This document shows, piece by piece, positions 773-8,738 of a DNA stretch of 11,612 nucleotides. The notes under the pieces were generated by a model that was not told the DNA's origin, made no database searches, and saw only the letters and a program-made list of their open reading frames with translations. Origin of the DNA: Roseburia sp. (GTDB lineage: Bacteria; Bacillota_A; Clostridia; Lachnospirales; Lachnospiraceae); NCBI GenBank assembly GCA_017547315.1, contig JAFYQA010000224.1, positions 1-11,612 on the forward strand. Reading direction: 5' to 3'. The first letter of the stretch is position 1; each line of letters starts with the position of its first letter. Position numbers and translations under genes: made by a program.

Positions 773-2449
773 ATGTTACAGAATCTGCATGTGAAAAACT
801 TAGCGTTGATTGATGAGACAGAGGTGGATTTTAAAGAGGGACTGAATATTCTTTCCGGTGAAACGGGTGCCGGTAAGTCAATCATTATTGGTTCTATCAA
901 TTTGGCGTTAGGGGAAAAAGTACAGAAGGAAATGCTTCGTGAGAACGGAGAGAATGCATTCGTTGAGTTGGTTTTTTCTGTTGAGAACGAAATACAGAAG
1001 AGGGCATTAGAGGAATTGGATGTCATTCCGGAAGATGATTATGTGATTTTGAGCCGCAAAATAGCAAATGGCAGAGGTGTGGCAAAAATCAATGGAGAAA
1101 GTGTTCCGGCATCTAAAATGCGAGAAGTTGCGGCGATTTTAATTGATATTCACGGACAGCATGAACATCAGTCGCTTTTACATAAGAAAAAACATTTAGA
1201 GATTTTAGATGAGTTTGCGAAAGAGGCTTTAGCTGAGAAAAAAGAAAAATTAAAAGAAGCCTACGCTATTTACAAGGGATTATTAGAAGAGCTAAACCGT
1301 GCTGATGTGGACGAGGAAGAACGTTTAAGAGAGGCTTCTTTTTTGGAATATGAGATAAAAGAGATTTCTGAGGCAAAACTCCAGGATAACGAGGATGAAA
1401 TCATCGAAGAAGAATATAAACGCTACCGTAATGGCAAAAAAATTATGGAAGCTTTACATACAGCATATCAGTATTCCGGTAATGGTGGTGAGAATGCATC
1501 CGATTTTACGACGAGAGCATTGAAAGAATTGCAAGGTGCCTCAGCTTTTGATGAGAAAGTAAGAGAATTAGAAGCACAGATGTTGGAGATTGACAATCTG
1601 TTGAATGATTTTAATCGTGAAATTGCAGACTATATTGATGAGACAGAGTTTGATGATGAGACGTTTTATGAATTAGAGAAGCGTTTGGATGAGATTAATC
1701 ATCTCAAATCAAAATATGGTAGAACGATAGCGGATATATTAGCAGCTTTATCGGAAAAGGAAGCAAGACTTGTAAAATTGCAAGATTATGACGCTTACTT
1801 AGCTACTTTAAAAGGAAAAGTGGCAGAAGCAGAACAAGAACTTAGAAGTATTTCTATGGAGGTGTCTGCAATTCGTCAAGAATACGCAAAAGACTTGGTG
1901 AAAGAAGTGACATCTGCTTTGCAGGAATTGAATTTCTTAGATGTGCGTTTTGAAATGCAGTTTGAAGAACTTTCGAGTTATACAGCAAATGGTCTGGATG
2001 AAGCAGAATTTTTGATTTCGACTAATCCGGGGGAACCAGTAAAGTCGCTTGGTAAAGTAGCTTCCGGTGGTGAATTATCACGTATTATGCTGGCGATTAA
2101 GACTATTTTAGCGGATAATGATGCGATTGAGACATTGATTTTTGATGAGATTGATAGTGGTATTAGTGGAAGAACAGCACAGATGGTATCTGAGAAAATG
2201 AATACCTTAGGATGTAATCATCAGATTATCTGTATTACACATCTTCCGCAGATTGCAGCTATGGCAGATGCACATTATCTGATTGAAAAATCAGTAGAAA
2301 ACAGTACTACGGTCTCTAAGATTCGCCTGTTAAATGATGAAGAACGAGTGGATGAACTTTCACGTATGCTTGGCGGTGTAGAGATTACCGATAAAGTTCG
2401 TGAGAGTGCAAGAGAAATGCGAGAACTTGCATTGCAAAAGAAAGTTTAA
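773..2449 (+). CDS. recN: DNA repair ATPase RecN
   Basis: The product is 558 residues, normal for RecN, an SMC-like ABC ATPase that gathers at DNA double-strand breaks and helps recombinational repair. Visible parts are Walker A GETGAGKS (residues 29-36), a central helical coiled-coil region rich in Glu, Lys and Leu (about 150-390), the ABC signature SGGELS (431-436), Walker B with LIFDEIDSG (about 455-463), and a His-switch region THLPQIAAMADAHY near the end. All ATPase motifs look intact. The start ATG has AAGGAG at 763-768 with a normal spacing. The gene follows argR by 52 bp on the same strand. A strong terminator after it (2505-2545) closes the nadK-argR-recN unit. I see no LexA-type site before it. 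Confidence 0.97.
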   Translation: MLQNLHVKNLALIDETEVDFKEGLNILSGETGAGKSIIIGSINLALGEKVQKEMLRENGENAFVELVFSVENEIQKRALEELDVIPEDDYVILSRKIANGRGVAKINGESVPASKMREVAAILIDIHGQHEHQSLLHKKKHLEILDEFAKEALAEKKEKLKEAYAIYKGLLEELNRADVDEEERLREASFLEYEIKEISEAKLQDNEDEIIEEEYKRYRNGKKIMEALHTAYQYSGNGGENASDFTTRALKELQGASAFDEKVRELEAQMLEIDNLLNDFNREIADYIDETEFDDETFYELEKRLDEINHLKSKYGRTIADILAALSEKEARLVKLQDYDAYLATLKGKVAEAEQELRSISMEVSAIRQEYAKDLVKEVTSALQELNFLDVRFEMQFEELSSYTANGLDEAEFLISTNPGEPVKSLGKVASGGELSRIMLAIKTILADNDAIETLIFDEIDSGISGRTAQMVSEKMNTLGCNHQIICITHLPQIAAMADAHYLIEKSVENSTTVSKIRLLNDEERVDELSRMLGGVEITDKVRESAREMRELALQKKV

Positions 2450-2504
2450 AACCATTATCTGTCAAAGTAAAATTAGGATTGAAAACTGAAAAAAGAATCA
2501 TAAT

Positions 2505-2545
2505 AAAAGAGATAGCATTGTACATATGGTGCTATCTCTTTTTTT
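2505..2545 (+). terminator. Rho-independent terminator between recN and spoIVB
   Basis: A 13-bp perfect stem, AAAAGAGATAGCA (2505-2517) with TGCTATCTCTTTT (2530-2542), has a 12-nt loop and runs into seven T residues (2539-2545). It ends the recN transcript and implies a separate promoter for spoIVB. It also argues against the upstream TTG start at 2479, because that reading frame would run through the hairpin. Confidence 0.88.
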
Positions 2546-2592
2546 CGCGAATAAGCAGAGAGCTTAATGTAGAGATAGGTTATGGAGGAGTT

Positions 2593-3816
2593 ATGGTGAG
2601 AGCAGAGTTTTTTAAATGGCTTGCAGGTGTTGGTCTTTGGGCATTATTACTTTTTTCAGTGAAGACATTTTGGGATGCATTGCCGGATCATATTTATGTG
2701 AAAGTTGGAGATACAGTGTCTTATGATTTTCAGGTGCCAGTAACTGTCACTGTAAAAGAGGAGGAAACCGAGACTGTTTTTGTAGAAGGGCGTGCGAAGA
2801 CGGTAGAAAATATAGAACCTTCTTATTATGTGACCTGCAAGCTCTTCGGCATATTACCGGTAAAGGAAATCGCAGTATCTGTAGTAGAGGGAGAAGCGGT
2901 TTTTGTGGGTGGTATGCCGGTAGGAATTTATGCGAAAACCAAAGGGATTTTAGTAATCGGAATGGGAGAGGTGACAGATTCTTCGGGAACGAAAAAAAGT
3001 CCGGCTAAAAATATGATTAAGGTGGGAGATTATATTGTTAGTGTCAATGGAGAGACCGTGAAAGAAAAGGAAGATTTGGTAAAGTTAGTTCATGAAAATG
3101 GAGAGAAGACGGAAGTGATAGGCTTATTCCGGGATGAGAAGTTTATGGAAGTTGGCGTGGACGCGGTACTTTCCGAACAGAATCGTTATATGCTGGGTGT
3201 CTGGGTAAGGGATGATATGGCAGGAATAGGAACACTTACGTTTTATCGAAGTGACCAAAGTTTTGGTGCACTTGGTCATCCGATTAATGATGGTGATACG
3301 GGAGAGATGCTTTTAATGGAAGAAGGAAAGCTTTACGAAACGGATATTATTGGAATTAAGCGTGGCGAAAACGGAAACCCAGGAGAACTATCCGGTGTGA
3401 TATCGTATGGAAAGGATAGCTATCTGGGTGAAATTGATACGAATTCTGAAATCGGAATCTATGGAACACTTGATGGGAATTTGAAAAAACTTGAGGTTGG
3501 AACTTACTGTGAGATAGGATACAAACAGGAGATTGAAATGGGACCAGCGGTAATTCTATCGGCTGTATCAGGGGAGTTGGACGAATATGATGTCGTTATC
3601 GAGGGTGTGAACTTTAGTAGCATGGAGAGTAATAAAGGGATTATTTTGCATGTGACGGATAAGGAACTTTTGGAATTAACTGGTGGCATTGTGCAGGGGA
3701 TGTCGGGCTCGCCCATTCTCCAAAATGGGCGAATTGTGGGTGCTGTAACACATGTTTTAGTCAATGACCCAACTAGGGGGTATGGAATTTTTATAGAGAA
3801 TATGCTGGAGCATTGA
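2593..3816 (+). CDS. spoIVB: SpoIVB sporulation serine protease (family S55)
   Basis: ATG 2593 follows GGAGGAG (2584-2590) and gives 407 residues; the frame can be extended to TTG 2479 but only through the terminator. In Bacillus subtilis SpoIVB is made in the forespore, is secreted into the space between the two membranes and cleaves SpoIVFA, releasing SpoIVFB to activate sigma-K. Visible parts are an N-terminal signal-anchor helix (about residues 8-22), a PDZ-like segment (about 115-180, including MIKVGDYIVSVNGE), the catalytic-type histidine in GALGHPIND (His229), and the catalytic-type serine in GGIVQGMSGSPI (Ser371). The C-terminus is complete and ends in ENMLEH. A second, diverged copy of its last 39 codons lies at 6986-7107. 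The usual downstream neighbour spo0A is absent here. I found no convincing sigma-F or sigma-G promoter in the short space after the terminator. Confidence 0.95.
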   Translation: MVRAEFFKWLAGVGLWALLLFSVKTFWDALPDHIYVKVGDTVSYDFQVPVTVTVKEEETETVFVEGRAKTVENIEPSYYVTCKLFGILPVKEIAVSVVEGEAVFVGGMPVGIYAKTKGILVIGMGEVTDSSGTKKSPAKNMIKVGDYIVSVNGETVKEKEDLVKLVHENGEKTEVIGLFRDEKFMEVGVDAVLSEQNRYMLGVWVRDDMAGIGTLTFYRSDQSFGALGHPINDGDTGEMLLMEEGKLYETDIIGIKRGENGNPGELSGVISYGKDSYLGEIDTNSEIGIYGTLDGNLKKLEVGTYCEIGYKQEIEMGPAVILSAVSGELDEYDVVIEGVNFSSMESNKGIILHVTDKELLELTGGIVQGMSGSPILQNGRIVGAVTHVLVNDPTRGYGIFIENMLEH

Positions 3817-3944
3817 GTCCAAGCTGGACAGGAGTAAAATGAGGCGATACAAGCTTGCTTGTATGAGCCTCATTTTTGCGAGTGGACAATTTGGCGATAG
3901 CCAGGCACTGAGGAAAAGCGAAGCTTTTTCGAAGTGGCTTGGAC
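3817..3944. repeat. Structured intergenic spacer bounded by an 8-bp inverted repeat
   Basis: GTCCAAGC (3817-3824) begins directly after the spoIVB stop and its reverse complement GCTTGGAC lies at 3937-3944. Inside are a small hairpin GTCCA/TGGAC (3817-3829), the spoIVB terminator, a short GGC/GCC fold near 3894-3903, and AAAAGC-GAA-GCTTTT (3914-3928) followed by a T. It looks like a folded, possibly REP-like intergenic unit. No second copy is in the window, so this is tentative. Confidence 0.35.
3836..3877 (+). terminator. Terminator of spoIVB
   Basis: AAAATGAGGC (3836-3845) pairs with GCCTCATTTT (3867-3876), and inside it ATACAAGC (3847-3854) pairs with GCTTGTAT (3857-3864). The two stems form one long hairpin with a small internal mismatch, and the 3' arm ends in a run of five T residues. 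It lies 20 bp after the spoIVB stop. The near-symmetrical A and T ends mean it could work in both directions. Confidence 0.85.
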
Positions 3945-4006
3945 AGAAAGATTAAGAAAAATAGGGACGAGTTATGTTGGGAGCAACAAAAATTCGCCCA
4001 TTTTAT

Positions 4007-4013
4007 GGAGGAG
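4007..4013 (+). promoter_or_regulatory. Ribosome binding site that decides the start of the Phd-like gene
   Basis: GGAGGAG at 4007-4013 precedes ATG 4018 by 4 nt (6 nt counted from GGAGG). An open extension of the frame up to ATG 3934 starts inside the structured spacer and has no site of its own, so 4018 is preferred. Confidence 0.7.
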
Positions 4014-4017
4014 AAAA

Positions 4018-4413
4018 ATGAATAAATTTATACCATTATCAAGTTTAAAGGATACAATAGGAATTGTTGAATTATGTAAAAAGGCAGGTGAGCCTGTAGT
4101 GGTAAACAGAAATGGAGAACTTAAGTTAGTTATTATGACAAAGGATATTTTCAATGAATATTTTCGGATTAGAAAAGCGAACGGAGAATTAGATATTGAG
4201 AAGGAGTATTTTGGAATAAAAAATCAGAATTATGAATTAGAGGCAATCACGATTCAAAAACTAAAAAATCCGGCAGAGATTGTTAGAATATGTGAAAGCA
4301 TTGATATGCCGTTTCCTATTATTAGAAATGGTTATGATGAATTGTATGTAATGAGTTATAAGGAGTATTTGAGAAGAAAAGCAGTTATAATGTTTGTGAA
4401 AAAAACTTTTTGA
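4018..4413 (+). CDS. Protein with two tandem Phd/YefM-like antitoxin domains
   Basis: From ATG 4018 the product is 131 residues. Residues about 4-48 (IPLSSLKD through IFNEYF) look like the DNA-binding half of a Phd/YefM antitoxin: the SLKD helix, then PVVVNRNGELKLVIM and a following helix. Residues about 79-123 (ITIQKLKN through EYLRRK) align to the first copy without a gap over 45 positions, with 12 identities including LK, IV, C, P, RNG, L and M, so this is an internal duplication. Phd antitoxins dimerise, bind operators and mask a toxin with a disordered tail; here the second domain and a basic end replace that tail. A Fic-family gene follows 156 bp downstream; Doc, the partner of Phd, is also Fic-fold. 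Whether this protein neutralises that Fic, or is only a regulator, is inference. Confidence 0.7.
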   Translation: MNKFIPLSSLKDTIGIVELCKKAGEPVVVNRNGELKLVIMTKDIFNEYFRIRKANGELDIEKEYFGIKNQNYELEAITIQKLKNPAEIVRICESIDMPFPIIRNGYDELYVMSYKEYLRRKAVIMFVKKTF

Positions 4414-4502
4414 AACAAAACACAGAAACAAGCAATCTTATTTCAAAAATATGGTGACTTTTTGAAATAAGAGAGTTATAATAAGTGTAGTTATTTCAAA
4501 AA
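4407..4502. promoter_or_regulatory. Putative operator of four alternating 12-bp half-sites around the fic promoter
   Basis: The half-site TTTTTGAAAYAA occurs at 4407-4418 (forward, over the stop codon of the Phd-like gene), 4438-4449 (reversed), 4459-4470 (forward) and 4491-4502 (reversed). The middle pair is a perfect 13-bp inverted repeat, 4437-4449 with 4459-4471, with a 9-bp spacer. Starts are 31, 21 and 32 bp apart, close to 3, 2 and 3 helical turns, so all four would face the same side of the DNA. The -35 and -10 of the fic promoter lie between the second and fourth sites, so binding should repress. The binder could be the Phd-like protein or the Fic winged helix. Confidence 0.6.
4454..4482 (+). 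promoter_or_regulatory. Sigma-A-type promoter of fic
   Basis: The -10 is TATAAT at 4477-4482, a full consensus match. With a 17-bp spacer the -35 is GTGACT (4454-4459), 4 of 6 to TTGACA. The start of transcription should fall near 4489, right before the last operator half-site. This gives fic a transcript of its own, separate from the Phd-like gene. Confidence 0.6.
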
Positions 4503-4518
4503 AGAGGTGAAAAATTCT

Positions 4519-4556
4519 CTGCCTGCATAATCAGGCAGGCATTTTACTTCGTAAAA
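4519..4556 (+). promoter_or_regulatory. Two leader hairpins before the fic ribosome binding site
   Basis: TGCCTG (4520-4525) pairs with CAGGCA (4532-4537) and the stem can extend by one or two bases; an ATTTTACTT stretch follows. TTTTAC (4542-4547) pairs with GTAAAA (4551-4556) with a TTC loop, ending one base before the AAGGAG site (4558-4563). The first could be a weak attenuator and the second could affect access to the ribosome binding site. The function is inferred only. Confidence 0.4.
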
Positions 4557-4569
4557 CAAGGAGAATTAT

Positions 4570-5709
4570 ATGAATCGGGCAGGAATATACGTTGACAATT
4601 TAACAGGAGAGGCTACTTATCAATCTTTTAAACCAAATCCATTACCACCTATGCCGGAAATTGAAATGGATGAGGAGATTGTAAAACTTTTAGTAGATGC
4701 CAATAAACAACTTGTAAAACTTGATACTGCATCACAGTTAATTTCTAATGCGGATTTGTTTATATCAATGTATGTTAGAAAAGAAGCATTGATTTCTTCT
4801 CAAATAGAAGGAACTCAGTGTACTCTTGACGATGTATTAGATCCAGAAGTGGAAGCTAATGCAAATCTTGATGTTTCTGATGTTATTAATTATGTTAAAG
4901 CAACACAGTATGCATTAAAACGTCTGGAAAGATTACCTTTATGTTGCAGATTAATAAGAGAAATACATGAAGTATTAATGGAAAATGTTCGTGGACAGGA
5001 TAAGACTCCGGGAGAGTTTAGACATTCTCAAAATTGGATTGGGCCTGCCAACTGTTCGTTAAAAGATGCCAGATATATTCCGCCTAATGTAGAGGACATG
5101 CAAGATGCCATGTCTGATTTGGAAAAGTATATTAATGAAAATGTGAATTATGATCCATTGATTCGAGTAGCACTGATTCATTATCAGTTTGAAACAATAC
5201 ACCCGTTTTTAGATGGAAATGGAAGAATCGGAAGATTGCTGATATTACTCTATCTGATGGAACAGGGATTGCTTACTAAACCGGTCATTTATATATCCTA
5301 TTTCTTGAAAAAAAACCAGGTAGAATACTATGATCGAATTAGTGAAGTTAGAAGAAGTGGAAACTTTGAACAATGGATAAGATTCTTTTTGGAAGCAGTG
5401 AGTAAAGCGGCATCTGATTCATTGGAAGCAATTCGTCAGCTTTCTGCATTGCATGATACTAATATAGAAAAACTTCCGAAGACAACTCGAAGCAAAGATA
5501 ATTTACGAGCAGTTTTTGATTATATTGAACAGTATCCGATTATTGATATTAAGAGAACTGCAAAGGAATTAGATATTAGTTATAATACAGCAGCTACGGC
5601 TGTGAAGAAGCTTGTGGAAATTGGTATTTTGCAGGAAACAACCAATGCGGCGAGAAATAGAGTGTTTGCGTATGAGGAGTATTTGGGGATACTGAGGAAG
5701 GATACGTAA
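4570..5709 (+). CDS. Class II Fic family protein (AMP-transferase) with C-terminal winged helix
   Basis: The product is 379 residues, close to the length of class II Fic proteins such as Shewanella SoFic. An N-terminal Fic_N domain (about 15-100) holds the inhibitory helix motif S-x-x-x-E-G (SSQIEG, 76-81), whose Glu80 is expected to block productive ATP binding. The Fic core carries the full active motif HPFLDGNGRIGR (211-222), with catalytic His211. Residues about 310-375 form a winged helix (RTAKELDISYNTAATAVKKL, then a wing). The family moves AMP from ATP to hydroxyl side chains of target proteins; targets here are unknown. AAGGAG (4558-4563) sets the start. It follows a Phd-like gene and precedes a nucleotidyltransferase-nuclease fusion, and its promoter is flanked by operator-like half-sites, which suggests autoregulation. 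The block is richer in A and T than recN or the protease gene. Confidence 0.92.
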   Translation: MNRAGIYVDNLTGEATYQSFKPNPLPPMPEIEMDEEIVKLLVDANKQLVKLDTASQLISNADLFISMYVRKEALISSQIEGTQCTLDDVLDPEVEANANLDVSDVINYVKATQYALKRLERLPLCCRLIREIHEVLMENVRGQDKTPGEFRHSQNWIGPANCSLKDARYIPPNVEDMQDAMSDLEKYINENVNYDPLIRVALIHYQFETIHPFLDGNGRIGRLLILLYLMEQGLLTKPVIYISYFLKKNQVEYYDRISEVRRSGNFEQWIRFFLEAVSKAASDSLEAIRQLSALHDTNIEKLPKTTRSKDNLRAVFDYIEQYPIIDIKRTAKELDISYNTAATAVKKLVEIGILQETTNAARNRVFAYEEYLGILRKDT

Positions 5710-5723
5710 GAAAAAATGTGGTG

Positions 5724-5729
5724 TATAAT
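5724..5729 (+). promoter_or_regulatory. Possible -10 element before the nucleotidyltransferase-nuclease gene
   Basis: A consensus TATAAT lies 48 bp before the gene, but no good -35 sits 16-18 bp upstream (GATACG at 5701-5706). It may be a weak internal promoter or a chance match in AT-rich DNA. Confidence 0.25.
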
Positions 5730-5777
5730 GCTTGAATTATAAAGATAAAACAGGAAAAGGCGATAGGAGGTTATTTT

Positions 5778-6785
5778 ATGACAAAGAGTAATACAAAATT
5801 TTTGGCTTGGGATTTACAAGAGATTGTTTCGACAATTGTTGGGCATCATCCTAATATATCAAAAGTGTATTTGTTTGGTTCGCGTTCATATAAAACGCAT
5901 AGTTATAGGTCAGATATTGACATTTTAGTAATAACGGATAATATTCCTATTCCGGATGTTGAAGTGAATTCTTGGTTGCATGAAGAATATCCGCCAGTGG
6001 ATTTGTTTTGTTCGTACGATTCACAAGTTGCAAAGTCAGTGATAAATGGAAGTCTTATTCAATATATTCCAGGAAATAAGTGGGGATATAACAATTTAGC
6101 TGAACAATTAGATGCAAAGTTATTGTGGGAACGACAAAAAGGATTTGCAACTGATTTTTCAGATTGGATACAACAAACACTAAATGGAATAAATTATCAA
6201 ATGAGTATTATTCCTTCATATCCCATTCCTGACTTTGTAGAAACGGTAAATGCAGCTTTGCAATCATTGGAGGCTTCAGGAATTAAAACTTATTATGCAG
6301 GAAGTACATGGATAGAAATTAGCAATGAAATAATAAATTTAATTAAGAGAGGGATAAGAAAACCTATAAAATATCAGAAACGAGCAAGATGTTTTTCTTA
6401 TGATAGTATAAAAATCGAAAATGAATATGATTTTCAAAATATGATTCAGTTTATACTTCGACCTATTTTTCCTGATATTGAATCTGAACCCTTTATAATA
6501 AAAATAGATGGAAATGAAAAAAAGGCGGACTTTGCGATAAATGGAAATAAAATTGTGATAGAAGCTAAGTGGGTAGATGATACAAATAAAAAAGACAGTG
6601 TTCTAAAAACAATTAGTGGTCTTTCTGATTTTTATATTCAAAATCCTAATATATGTAGTCTTATTTTTCTTGTATTATATAAGAAAGATGTTTCTCTTGA
6701 TAAGGATGCTCTTGAGAAAATGTTTTCATACGAAAAAAGCACACCACCCATTTTTGTTCGATTTATAGAAAGTGACTATGTTTAA
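5778..6785 (+). CDS. Nucleotidyltransferase fused to a DpnII/MboI-like PD-(D/E)xK nuclease domain
   Basis: AGGAGG (5765-5770) lies 7 nt before the ATG; the product is 335 residues. The N-terminal part (about 20-100) is a DNA polymerase beta-type nucleotidyltransferase of the MNT kind: LFGSRSY (GS at 34-35), SDIDIL (Asp46, Asp48) and a third acidic site in PVDLF (Asp75). The middle (about 105-205) is helical and unassigned. The C-terminal part (about 210-330) reads like the REase_DpnII-MboI fold: EYDFQNMIQFILRPIF, then KADFAI (Asp251) and VIEAKW (Glu262, Lys264), the D-Ex-K core, then a strand SLIFLVLY. All expected catalytic residues are present. The fusion suggests a defence nuclease or toxin controlled by, or acting with, nucleotide transfer; the role is inference. 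It follows fic by 68 bp with no terminator between, so co-transcription is possible. The codon use is strikingly AT-rich. Confidence 0.8.
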   Translation: MTKSNTKFLAWDLQEIVSTIVGHHPNISKVYLFGSRSYKTHSYRSDIDILVITDNIPIPDVEVNSWLHEEYPPVDLFCSYDSQVAKSVINGSLIQYIPGNKWGYNNLAEQLDAKLLWERQKGFATDFSDWIQQTLNGINYQMSIIPSYPIPDFVETVNAALQSLEASGIKTYYAGSTWIEISNEIINLIKRGIRKPIKYQKRARCFSYDSIKIENEYDFQNMIQFILRPIFPDIESEPFIIKIDGNEKKADFAINGNKIVIEAKWVDDTNKKDSVLKTISGLSDFYIQNPNICSLIFLVLYKKDVSLDKDALEKMFSYEKSTPPIFVRFIESDYV

Positions 6786-6869
6786 AAATATAGAATTAAA
6801 ACAAAAAGAGATATCGGAATTTATACATATTAATTAGAGATTTATGCTAATGAGCATAGCATTAATATG

Positions 6870-6925
6870 AATAATACCACTCCTAAAAATTGTGCAAATA
6901 CACAAGATTTAGGAGTGGTATTATT
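6870..6925 (+). terminator. Long hairpin, probable terminator of the accessory block
   Basis: An 18-bp perfect inverted repeat, AATAATACCACTCCTAAA (6870-6887) with its complement at 6908-6925, encloses a nested TTGTG/CACAA stem (6890-6894 with 6901-6905). The total is 23 base pairs with a small internal loop. The 3' arm ends in TATTATT followed by GTTCTT, a modest U-rich tail for + strand termination. It lies 84 bp after the nuclease gene. The exact symmetry would also suit the end of a small mobile repeat. Confidence 0.6.
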
Positions 6926-6985
6926 GTTCTTGAAGAAAAACATCAAAATTTGCAGAAAATTGTTGCTCCCTACTTGACACGAAGG

Positions 6986-7107
6986 TGAGTGGCAGCCCGA
7001 TTTTACAGAATGGGAAGATTGTGGGAGCCGTGACACACGTGCTGGTGAATGATCCGACAAGAGGGTACGGGATTTTTATTGAAAATATGTTGGATGCAGC
7101 ATTATAA
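6986..7107 (+). pseudogene. Remnant of a second spoIVB: last 39 codons only
   Basis: The frame from AGT 6988 to TAA 7105-7107 encodes [10 protein letters not shown], then [18 protein letters not shown] and [11 protein letters not shown]. It matches the end of the intact SpoIVB from catalytic-type Ser371 onward at 34 of the first 35 residues, yet 30 of those 105 bases differ by my count, almost all silent, and no identical run exceeds 8 bases. So this is not a recent copy of the upstream gene but the 3' end of a diverged homologue. Similarity starts abruptly at about 6986; the sequence before it is unrelated. There is no start codon with a ribosome binding site, so it is taken as non-functional. 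It ends 59 bp before the AbgT gene on the other strand. Confidence 0.88.
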
Positions 7108-7120
7108 GTGTAGGATGTAA

Positions 7121-7152
7121 AATAAAAAGCGCCGGAGCATATCCGACGCTTT
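7121..7152 (-). terminator. Terminator of the AbgT gene, possibly bidirectional
   Basis: AAAGCG (7126-7131) pairs with CGCTTT (7147-7152), and after one C-A mismatch CGGA (7133-7136) pairs with TCCG (7142-7145) around a GCATA loop. Read on the - strand it is followed by TTATT, a good U-tract for the AbgT transcript, whose stop codon is 14 bp away. Read on the + strand it would have ended the old spoIVB transcript. Confidence 0.8.
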
Positions 7153-7166
7153 CATTGTCTTTTAAA

Positions 7167-8738
7167 TTAACCCATCGTGTAGAAAATGCTTGTATCAACA
7201 CCGATAGGAAGTCCTACTGTTAACCAAAGTACGAGGAGGATTGTCCAGCATACTAAGAATGCAATAGAGTATGGAATCATTGTTGCTGTAATAGTACCGA
7301 TTCCGGCTTTCTTATCATATTTCTGAGCGAATACGATGATTACTGAGAAATATGTCATTAGCGGTGTGATGATATTTGTAGAAGAGTCACCGATACGGTA
7401 TGCTAACTGGCAAAGTTCAGGGCTGTATCCTAAAAGCATGAACATTGGTACGAATACTGGTGCAAGGATGTTCCACTTTGCAGAAGCTGAACCCATGAAC
7501 AAGTTCAGGAATGCAGAGAAGAAAACAAAGATGATAACCAGTGGAATTAATCCGATGTCAGCACTCTTGAAGAAGCTTGCGCCTGAAAGAGCGATGATTG
7601 TACCTAATTTTGTGTAGTTGAAGTAGTTGATAAACTGTGAAGAAACAAATGCTAATGCAAGGAAAGATCCCATGGTAGACATTGCTTTGCTCATTGCGTT
7701 ACATACACCATTTTCTTTTGTGAATGTGCCAACAGTTTTACCATATACAGCACCTGGAATCATGAATAAGAATGTAATCAGCGTTACGATTCCGTTTACG
7801 AATGGAGATGCTGGACTACCGAAAATCTGGCCGTTTGCATTTCTCATGAAAGAATCAGCTGGAATACAAGCGATTACGATTACTGCAATGTAAATTAATG
7901 TAGCAATACCAGCATTTCTTAACCCTTTTCTTTCGATGTCAGTGATCGTTGTTAAAGAAAGGTCTTCTTCACCGTGAACTTCACCTGTGTATTTACCAAG
8001 ACGTGGTTCAACAACTTTATCTGTGATAAATGCACCGAGAATCGTGATCAGGAATGTAGATGCAATTAAGAACCAGTAGTTACCCATTACGGCTACTTCG
8101 TAGTTCGGATCGATAATGGAAACAGCTGCCTGAGAAATACCGGCAAGCAATGGATCTAATGTACCGATCAATAAGTTTGCAGAGAATCCACCAGATACAC
8201 CAGCGAATGCGGCTGCAAGACCAGCCATTGGATGACGTCCGTATGCACGGAAGATCATAGCTCCAAGTGGAATGAGGATAACGTATCCTGCATCACTTGC
8301 AATGTTGGACATAACACCTAAGAATACAACCATCGGTGAGATAAGTTTTGCAGGAGTTACAGTTACAGTTCTTTTTAAGAGTGTGTTAATAAGACCTGAC
8401 TGTTCCGCAACACCTACACCGAGCATAGCTACAAGTACCATACCAAGTGGTGCATAAGTTGTAAAGTTAGATACACAGTTTGTTAACATGTATGCAAGAC
8501 CATCTTTTGTAAGAAGGCTTACTACAGTTATAGTCTGTTCTTTGAGTTCACCATTAGAAATAAGTTCGCCTGTTGCGGAAAGTCCCGTAGCTGAAAGAAT
8601 CGCTGAAAGAACTACGATAATTAATGCTAAGCCTGCAAACAGAGCAACTGGGTGAGGAAGTTTGTTACCAACAGCCTCAATGCCATTGAGCCAACGATTA
8701 TAACCGCTAACTTTTTTGTTTGAGTTTTCTTTTGTCAT
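7167..8738 (-). CDS. AbgT family transporter (p-aminobenzoyl-glutamate type)
   Basis: The product is 523 residues, the usual family length. It is very hydrophobic with many membrane helices and two re-entrant-type segments. Family signatures include SNIASDAGYVILIPL (about 144-158), the GTLDPLLAGI region (192-201), GSASAKWNILAPVFVPMF (416-433) and YRIGDSSTNIITPLM (447-461). AbgT of Escherichia coli takes up p-aminobenzoyl-glutamate, a folate breakdown product; some other family members export sulfonamides, so direction and substrate are uncertain here. No abgA/abgB hydrolase genes are next to it. The start is supported by AGGAGAG (8744-8750 on the complement). A well-formed promoter lies at 8881-8910 and a terminator follows at 7121-7152, so the gene looks monocistronic. 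It is divergent from the protease gene. Confidence 0.93.
   Translation of the reverse strand: MTKENSNKKVSGYNRWLNGIEAVGNKLPHPVALFAGLALIIVVLSAILSATGLSATGELISNGELKEQTITVVSLLTKDGLAYMLTNCVSNFTTYAPLGMVLVAMLGVGVAEQSGLINTLLKRTVTVTPAKLISPMVVFLGVMSNIASDAGYVILIPLGAMIFRAYGRHPMAGLAAAFAGVSGGFSANLLIGTLDPLLAGISQAAVSIIDPNYEVAVMGNYWFLIASTFLITILGAFITDKVVEPRLGKYTGEVHGEEDLSLTTITDIERKGLRNAGIATLIYIAVIVIACIPADSFMRNANGQIFGSPASPFVNGIVTLITFLFMIPGAVYGKTVGTFTKENGVCNAMSKAMSTMGSFLALAFVSSQFINYFNYTKLGTIIALSGASFFKSADIGLIPLVIIFVFFSAFLNLFMGSASAKWNILAPVFVPMFMLLGYSPELCQLAYRIGDSSTNIITPLMTYFSVIIVFAQKYDKKAGIGTITATMIPYSIAFLVCWTILLVLWLTVGLPIGVDTSIFYTMG

Follow-up and report, generated by a model that had tools for sequence, protein, structure and literature searches.

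The 11,612-nucleotide contig JAFYQA010000224.1 of Roseburia sp. (assembly GCA_017547315.1; the whole stretch analyzed, hereafter the window) contained an intact spoIVB gene, encoding a sporulation protease, followed by three accessory (cargo) genes and a second, detached copy of the spoIVB 3' end. We refer to the 3' end of the intact gene as tail A and to the detached copy as tail B. The results described below suggest that the locus is an insertion site of large serine recombinase (LSR) elements, at which the end of spoIVB was replaced. The following features were identified:

2593..3816, + strand: spoIVB, 407 aa, intact SpoIVB peptidase (S55) with a PDZ domain, the last 37 codons forming tail A (PF05580, E=1.3e-82, profile span 2-210/210; 100% identical to protein P0001)
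3700..3702, + strand: core codon ATG (M370) of spoIVB, with TG 3701-3702 as the putative crossover
3703..3816, + strand: tail A (SGSP...ENMLEH stop), the spoIVB 3' end in use, read as a replacement
3815..3944, + strand: terminator-like 130-bp stretch, 95% identical to the sequence directly 3' of the spoIVB stop codon in genome G047
3967..3988, + strand: P'-like arm resembling the left end of elements that split spoIVB, shifted inward by ~265 bp in the unit
4018..4413, + strand: cargo, Phd/YefM-antitoxin-like protein, 131 aa (PF02604, E=8.9e-7, 29.0 bits, just missing the curated cut-off of 29.8)
4570..5709, + strand: cargo, Fic protein, 379 aa (PF13784, PF02661; PADLOC SoFic, E=1.9e-124)
5778..6785, + strand: cargo, nucleotidyltransferase-DpnII/MboI-type nuclease fusion, 335 aa (PF18765; PF18742, E=1.8e-24)
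6870..6925, strandless: hairpin close to the right end, on its inner side (inverted repeat I2, 25-nt arms, 92%), a possible two-way terminator
6960..6981, + strand: P arm, the right end of the element, TTGTTGCTCCCTACTTGACACG, with 1 mismatch to the arm of locus L082
6986..6987, + strand: TG core, an attR-type right attachment site by comparison with other extra tails
6988..7107, + strand: tail B (SGSP...ENMLDAAL stop; 39 codons and stop), a detached spoIVB 3' end read as the scar of the displaced end

The likely start codon of spoIVB was the ATG at 2593, which gives the 407-aa protein matching P0001, and the longest open reading frame (ORF) would begin at 2479; the SpoIVB of a relative (P0002) was 93% identical to the window protein. 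The inserted unit, counted from TG 3701-3702 to TG 6986-6987, comprised 3,285 bp, which corrects the limits of 4018-6785 given for the block in the initial annotation. No conjugation module was found among the three window cargo proteins by Pfam scan, and an Rfam scan of 2400-7300 gave four matches, all below the gathering score. Additionally, positions 3982-4004, at the P' arm and 5' of the antitoxin-like gene, formed an inverted near-copy of 3722-3744 in tail A (87% over 23 nt).

Over 35 codons compared from 3703 and 6988, tails A and B were identical at 75 of 105 bases and differed at 30. Twenty-two codons differed, 21 of them silently and one by an R/K change, leaving 34 of 35 residues equal, in exact agreement with the hand count of the initial annotation. 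Tandem duplication was ruled out by these base differences, nearly all of which were silent. The view that the two tails have different histories is supported by the same differences, and the view that spoIVB was rebuilt and not interrupted is supported by the completeness of the window gene over the PF05580 profile. When the window SpoIVB frame was searched against the window (E up to 0.01), a single extra copy was detected on the same strand at 6985-7095 (E=2.9e-17), beginning one codon before the SGSP serine. The further proposal, that foreign DNA carrying a spoIVB 3' end recombined into the locus, agrees with the different tail histories but missed the apparent site-specific event at an LSR attachment core: because the remnant begins at a core codon recurrently used by LSR elements, the insertion is best read as site-specific. 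At the loci examined, neither two complete spoIVB genes nor a tail owned by another intact gene was found, the two outcomes that had been named as contrary to this proposal.

Extra spoIVB tails were preceded directly by TG in 32 of 33 cases and carried a conserved P arm in 30 of 33, in a set of tails drawn from 24 sources picked for bearing a tail, which is neither random nor independent and includes near-identical elements (L082/L086/L167 and L084/L087). The P arm was called by regular expression in 24 of the 33 tails and by eye in six (G019 1805, G198, G205, G481 8332, L032 11741, and L075), and was not accepted in three (G378 5940, G407 1973, and L032 13188). Four of 120 listed SpoIVB relatives (P0039, P0040, P0041, and P0061) ceased being SpoIVB at GGIVQGM. 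The core position lies at what we take, from work on Bacillus, to be the catalytic serine motif of SpoIVB.

Single-protein scans of genomes and viruses gave no match, and an alignment-based query was required. Seven loci in IMG/VR encoded a SpoIVB relative; six of these (L082-L087) matched over 24-38 codons only, from the SGSP motif, with the tails preceded by the arm TTGTTGTTCCCTACTTGACAC or a GTGTTGTCCC-type sequence, and the seventh (L081) matched residues 83-406. Window positions 6960-6981 corresponded to the first IMG/VR arm with one mismatch, and the P' arm at 3967-3988 agreed at 20 of 22 bases with the left end of L001; each pattern had one match in the window and none in 200 shuffles. 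The near-identical elements L084 and L087 (99.65% over 6,657 bp) parted directly after TG into different spoIVB tails, and L082 and L086 (99.4-99.8% over 5.7 kb) parted at the sixth base after TG, also into different tails, with L167 as a third host of the L082-type end. In addition, a P-arm pattern from G378 had six matches in 4 of 397 genomes, five running into a tail and one into a decayed tail, and the reversed control had none; a left-end arm pattern gave no match in viral contigs. A phage collection contained 10 records with a tail, nine of them within longer spoIVB matches starting at residue 3 to 103, and only the faecal record MT836038.1, in which a P arm is followed by a tail, was an element. 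The records MT835504.1 and MT835737.1 and seven others named 'Bacteriophage sp.' contained longer spoIVB genes and appear to be bacterial contigs filed as phage.

These borders bear on the idea that tails were duplicated by homologous recombination or gene conversion alone, with no recombinase involved. Near-identical tail pairs in G343 (101/105 bases, with identity stopping just past the stop codon) and L075 (95/105), as well as one G378 tail lacking the P arm, would be expected under such duplication, which we nevertheless regard as quite improbable, as it is largely refuted by the common junction: one start codon and one P arm recur, and near-identical elements part at, or no more than six bases from, TG. 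Judged from these comparisons, tail B is an attachment-site scar. In the model favored below, the ATG (M370) before the SGSP motif is the attachment site of an LSR element family; the site itself, its arms and core, their recurrence, and the association with LSRs are shown by the sequences, as are the split and the rebuilt outcome. A separate case is a complete spoIVB tail in G378 (L141, 5601-6059) that lacks a P arm and is joined in frame to part of a Fic domain.

The recombinases at the spoIVB site in relatives were LSRs and not tyrosine integrases. Three tandem LSR genes were located upstream of the tail in L083, L084, L085, and L087, and two intact ones in L082 and L086; an LSR triplet was also present at the spoIVB site in G012, G198, and MT836038.1, with Resolvase, Recombinase, and zinc ribbon domains (PF00239, PF07508, and PF13408) in G012. 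In a search with the third LSR, with a query from six tail-bearing elements and limited to the best 80 of 221 loci, a tail was found in 8 of the 20 closest viral loci and in none of the next 60. A plasmid collection contained 43 records with relatives of this LSR, all below 60% identity. In L084, a complete LSR triplet is followed by a detached tail and, ~135 bp farther on, by the start of another LSR gene (6843-7873), an order suggesting tandem elements. In L174 (from 4540), two arm-like sequences in opposite orientations lie 3' of an LSR of this clade without a tail, possibly marking another target site or attP.

Split forms of spoIVB were identified at the same position. On the 3.1-Mb contig of G012 (total ~3.4 Mb), a genome in the same genus group as G001 (Roseburia metagenome-assembled genome (MAG) RGIG7456), 113,527 bp separate the spoIVB 5' part and the tail at TG, and the flanks rejoined at ATG/TG encode an in-frame 410-aa SpoIVB. 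This conjugative element harbors genes for a relaxase (PF03432), a coupling protein (PF02534), and the LSR triplet, and the Spo0A gene lies downstream of the tail with two other ORFs between. The comparison with skin made in the initial annotation was a good lead. A reverse transcriptase gene (L135, C1 1444809-1442956) in the G012 element may represent a group II intron. Left junctions were found in G001, G205, and L053, where in each case the contig extends no more than 138 bp beyond the ATG. These 138 bp are the same in G001 and G205 despite strongly differing SpoIVB proteins (82% and 46% identical to that of the window), which indicates that the ATG marks an element border. No intact spoIVB (E up to 0.001) was found in G001, G012, G205, or the genome of L053, and among these four only G012 and G205 yielded a detached tail. 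The contigs of L001, L137 (G205), and L053 stop exactly 138 bp past the ATG, within the left end of the splitting elements, as if assembly (k ~141) had halted at a sequence common to hosts or copies.

The split genes known in G012, G001, G205, and L053 also allow a two-step history of the window, in which a split-type element extending from P' to P (3967-6981) broke spoIVB by inserting site-specifically, and homologous recombination or a partly deleted cassette later restored tail A with ~150 bp, so that the tail was no part of the mobile unit. The position of the P' arm within the unit and the separate history of the 130-bp stretch, with its similarity to G047, would be accounted for in this way. 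However, we infer that homologous recombination would have had to proceed without homology to the right of tail A, and the multi-tail loci G481, G483, and L032, together with common tail-cargo borders, favor tails moving with cargo; we therefore consider this history unlikely.

Nine loci, including the window, combined an intact spoIVB tail with additional tails on one contig (G343, G185, G407, L032, L065, L075/G476, G481, and G483 being the others). L032 is from Parablautia sp. Marseille-Q6255, and in G407 the contig covers the intact gene for its final 103 codons only. Searching these loci with their own SpoIVB (E up to 0.01) gave 12 extra matches, all on the same strand and none from the 5' part; nine start at the core, two within three codons of it, and one, decayed, at +18. 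Several extra tails were present on one contig in G483 (two), G481 (three), and L032 (two), and G185 had a third, very decayed tail. Extra tails were also found on contigs other than that of spoIVB in G299 (three), G378 (three), G423, G198, and G019. In G299, a tail and the start of the following ORF are repeated (92% over 304 bp), and G019 and G378 have a common cassette (87%) that starts in the final bases of one tail and runs on into the following one. On the sequence comparisons, it is supported that tails travel with cargo. An empty-site comparison for relatives of G343 (G462 and G463) and the G476 group (G481-G484, G488, and G490) showed that genes 3' of spoIVB are not shared, which would fit a turnover hotspot.

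Many of the comparison contigs are MAGs, and chimeric assembly, or plain gene decay leaving a stray fragment, might in principle produce such patterns. We consider this explanation very improbable, given that the same anatomy was observed in L032, which is not labelled a MAG, on the 3.1-Mb G012 contig, and in unrelated data sets.

The cargo was identified from the ORFs scanned, which are part of all cargo ORFs. G343 carried GmrSD_N/NsnA-like, NsnC, TOTE primase-helicase, and HEC-02 pair genes; G378 carried RhuM-Fic and ToxN; G407 a helix-turn-helix protein and a nucleotidyltransferase; and G185 a DUF3841 protein and a phosphorylase. Because L075 (a pyruvate-formate-lyase-like enzyme and a radical-SAM protein) and L065 (a tetratricopeptide repeat protein and two proteins without a family) carry metabolic or familyless genes, the cargo comprises more than defence. 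Among the neighboring genes, AbgT as a conserved neighbor had one weak match in the 6 related genomes searched, and a C11 peptidase gene adjoins spoIVB in L011 only, among the loci compared at that stage.

Taken together, spoIVB emerges as a hotspot for LSR elements with two outcomes, namely a split gene or a gene rebuilt with a replacement tail, and we propose, with a probability of roughly 0.68 for the model as a whole, that the rebuilt units carry a spare 3' end. A circle bearing P arm, TG, and spare spoIVB tail would insert at the ATG/TG of spoIVB; the spare tail would complete the gene, the cargo would follow, and the old tail would stay behind the right end as P arm, TG, and tail B. The left junction would again be a spoIVB site, open to further units, and arrays could arise because this site is re-created, which the split form cannot do. 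In the window, the tail of a former host and ~150 bp of its flank would have been joined to the P' arm by faulty excision, giving the present order; this capture probably took place in an earlier host, and tail A would have arrived with the unit. Since no recombinase was found in the window, the unit is probably non-autonomous or decayed. More tentatively, at somewhat less than even odds in our judgment, the system might represent integron-like accretion in Clostridia, in which serine-recombinase triplets stack defence and metabolic cassettes in succession downstream of a functional spoIVB, each cassette's tail of ~37 codons repairing the gene and re-creating the site, and tail-less splitters may excise developmentally.

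The origin of the two tails was also approached by codon comparison. The check for a breakpoint in silent divergence along spoIVB, which the initial annotation had suggested, was run and gave no clear break; a weak codon trend placed tail A lowest. The fractions of same codons in the 5' part, tail A, and tail B were 110/238, 13/31, and 20/31 for G045, and 110/237, 13/31, and 20/32 for G050. Tail A was below both the 5' part and tail B in all nine usable relatives, in comparisons that share one tail A, are not independent, and are near silent saturation; a tenth relative, G001, was without a tail. This trend weakly suggests that tail A was imported.

Several observations weigh against the proposed model. 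No circle and no empty/filled pair of close strains was found, and no LSR was detected among the Pfam-scanned ORFs of the window. When 2.5 kb were scanned at each of 10 rebuilt loci, the P' arm was present in the window alone, so that the capture step draws on a single case. The reaction of a P-arm tail with spoIVB differs from the canonical LSR reaction of attP with attB; PMC5595907 cites Ccr recombinases that recombine non-canonical pairs, attR x attR among them. Six of the eight tail-bearing loci in the LSR search were the seed contigs L082-L087. The remaining 14 closest loci comprised two with a tail (L167, which also came up in a separate search, and L171, the sole new tail-bearing locus of this search), six ending within ~200 bp, and six without a tail; recombinases of this clade are therefore not confined to spoIVB. 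Decay of tails rose with distance from spoIVB in G185 and L032 but not in G481. By the codon comparison, tail A was only weakly odd, and most loci are MAG contigs. Furthermore, the 130-bp stretch at 3815-3944 is 95% identical to G047, yet the SpoIVB proteins are 49% identical and the tails agree at 66 of 105 bases; this similarity, which borders at the stop codon and was the one full-length match among 62 genomes searched, is unexplained by the model.

Parts of this arrangement are found in known systems. The e14 and phage 21 elements in icd carry a variant 3' end and leave the displaced native end at the far side, using a tyrosine recombinase and a long shared attachment sequence. Two diverged ends of the target gene are present in the window too, the codon trend pointing weakly to tail A as the imported one, whereas the spoIVB site has LSR-type arms and a TG core. 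Staphylococcal cassette chromosome (SCC) elements at rlmH/orfX use LSRs (Ccr), keep the target gene whole, accrete in tandem, and recombine non-canonical site pairs. Unlike SCC, the spoIVB units have a different target gene and replace ~37 codons of it. Integron cassette arrays receive successive cassettes, some with one or two genes, at one entry site; in contrast, the unit border at spoIVB consists of a gene tail and an LSR-type arm.

Intervening elements of the skin/SPbeta type are serine-recombinase elements that split sporulation genes. The gin element splits gerE, encodes three recombinases, and lacks phage genes (PMC5595907); it is similar to the split spoIVB elements as a serine-recombinase element splitting a sporulation gene. 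In contrast to skin and gin, the rebuilt spoIVB is uninterrupted and requires no excision; interruption was seen in G012 and not in the window. Streptococcal integrative and conjugative elements (ICEs) with serine-integrase triplets disrupt mutT, traG, and hsdM, as reported in PMC4701971. Triplet ICEs (PMC4701971, PMC5053989) resemble the spoIVB elements in having, at the end that faces the target, three LSR genes in tandem, along with conjugation genes and 2-8 bp repeats. The differences are spoIVB as the target and a unit class that keeps the gene whole with a second tail. The G012 element has the LSR genes, the conjugation genes, and the disrupted target of a triplet ICE, whereas the window has no LSR or conjugation gene among its scanned ORFs and an undisrupted target. 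A literature search of open-licence papers found nothing on elements in spoIVB. We regard the joint occurrence of an LSR triplet, stacking, and the rebuilding of a sporulation gene by a second 3' end as a new combination of known features.

At least 256 of 397 family genomes had a SpoIVB match, and at least 18, which were searched again, had two or more. Clear extra or detached tails were found in at least eight family genomes (G185, G198, G205, G299, G343, G378, G407, and G423); G409 had a weak extra tail, and a further member of the 397, G001, is split. At the genus level, at least 3 of 62 genomes were affected (G001, G012, and G019), and 3 of 21 genomes comprising G476 and its 20 relatives had extra tails (G476, G481, and G483). 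Among 108 loci scanned, three had extra tails (L032, L065, and L075) and two without a tail were truncated at the core (L001 and L053).

These results point to repeated insertion at a hotspot within the gene of a sporulation protease, tied to serine-recombinase triplets, and one locus family shows both harmful (gene split) and benign (gene end replaced) outcomes. Past insertions could be read from the leftover tails, and whether spoIVB is restored by excision during development can be tested directly on the split cases. Provided that the rebuilt site can be used again, it would represent a cassette-stacking system outside integrons, with cargo often resembling phage defence or toxin-antitoxin genes. 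Thus, the locus looks like a slot able to take new genes without breaking spoIVB, which is needed for spore formation.

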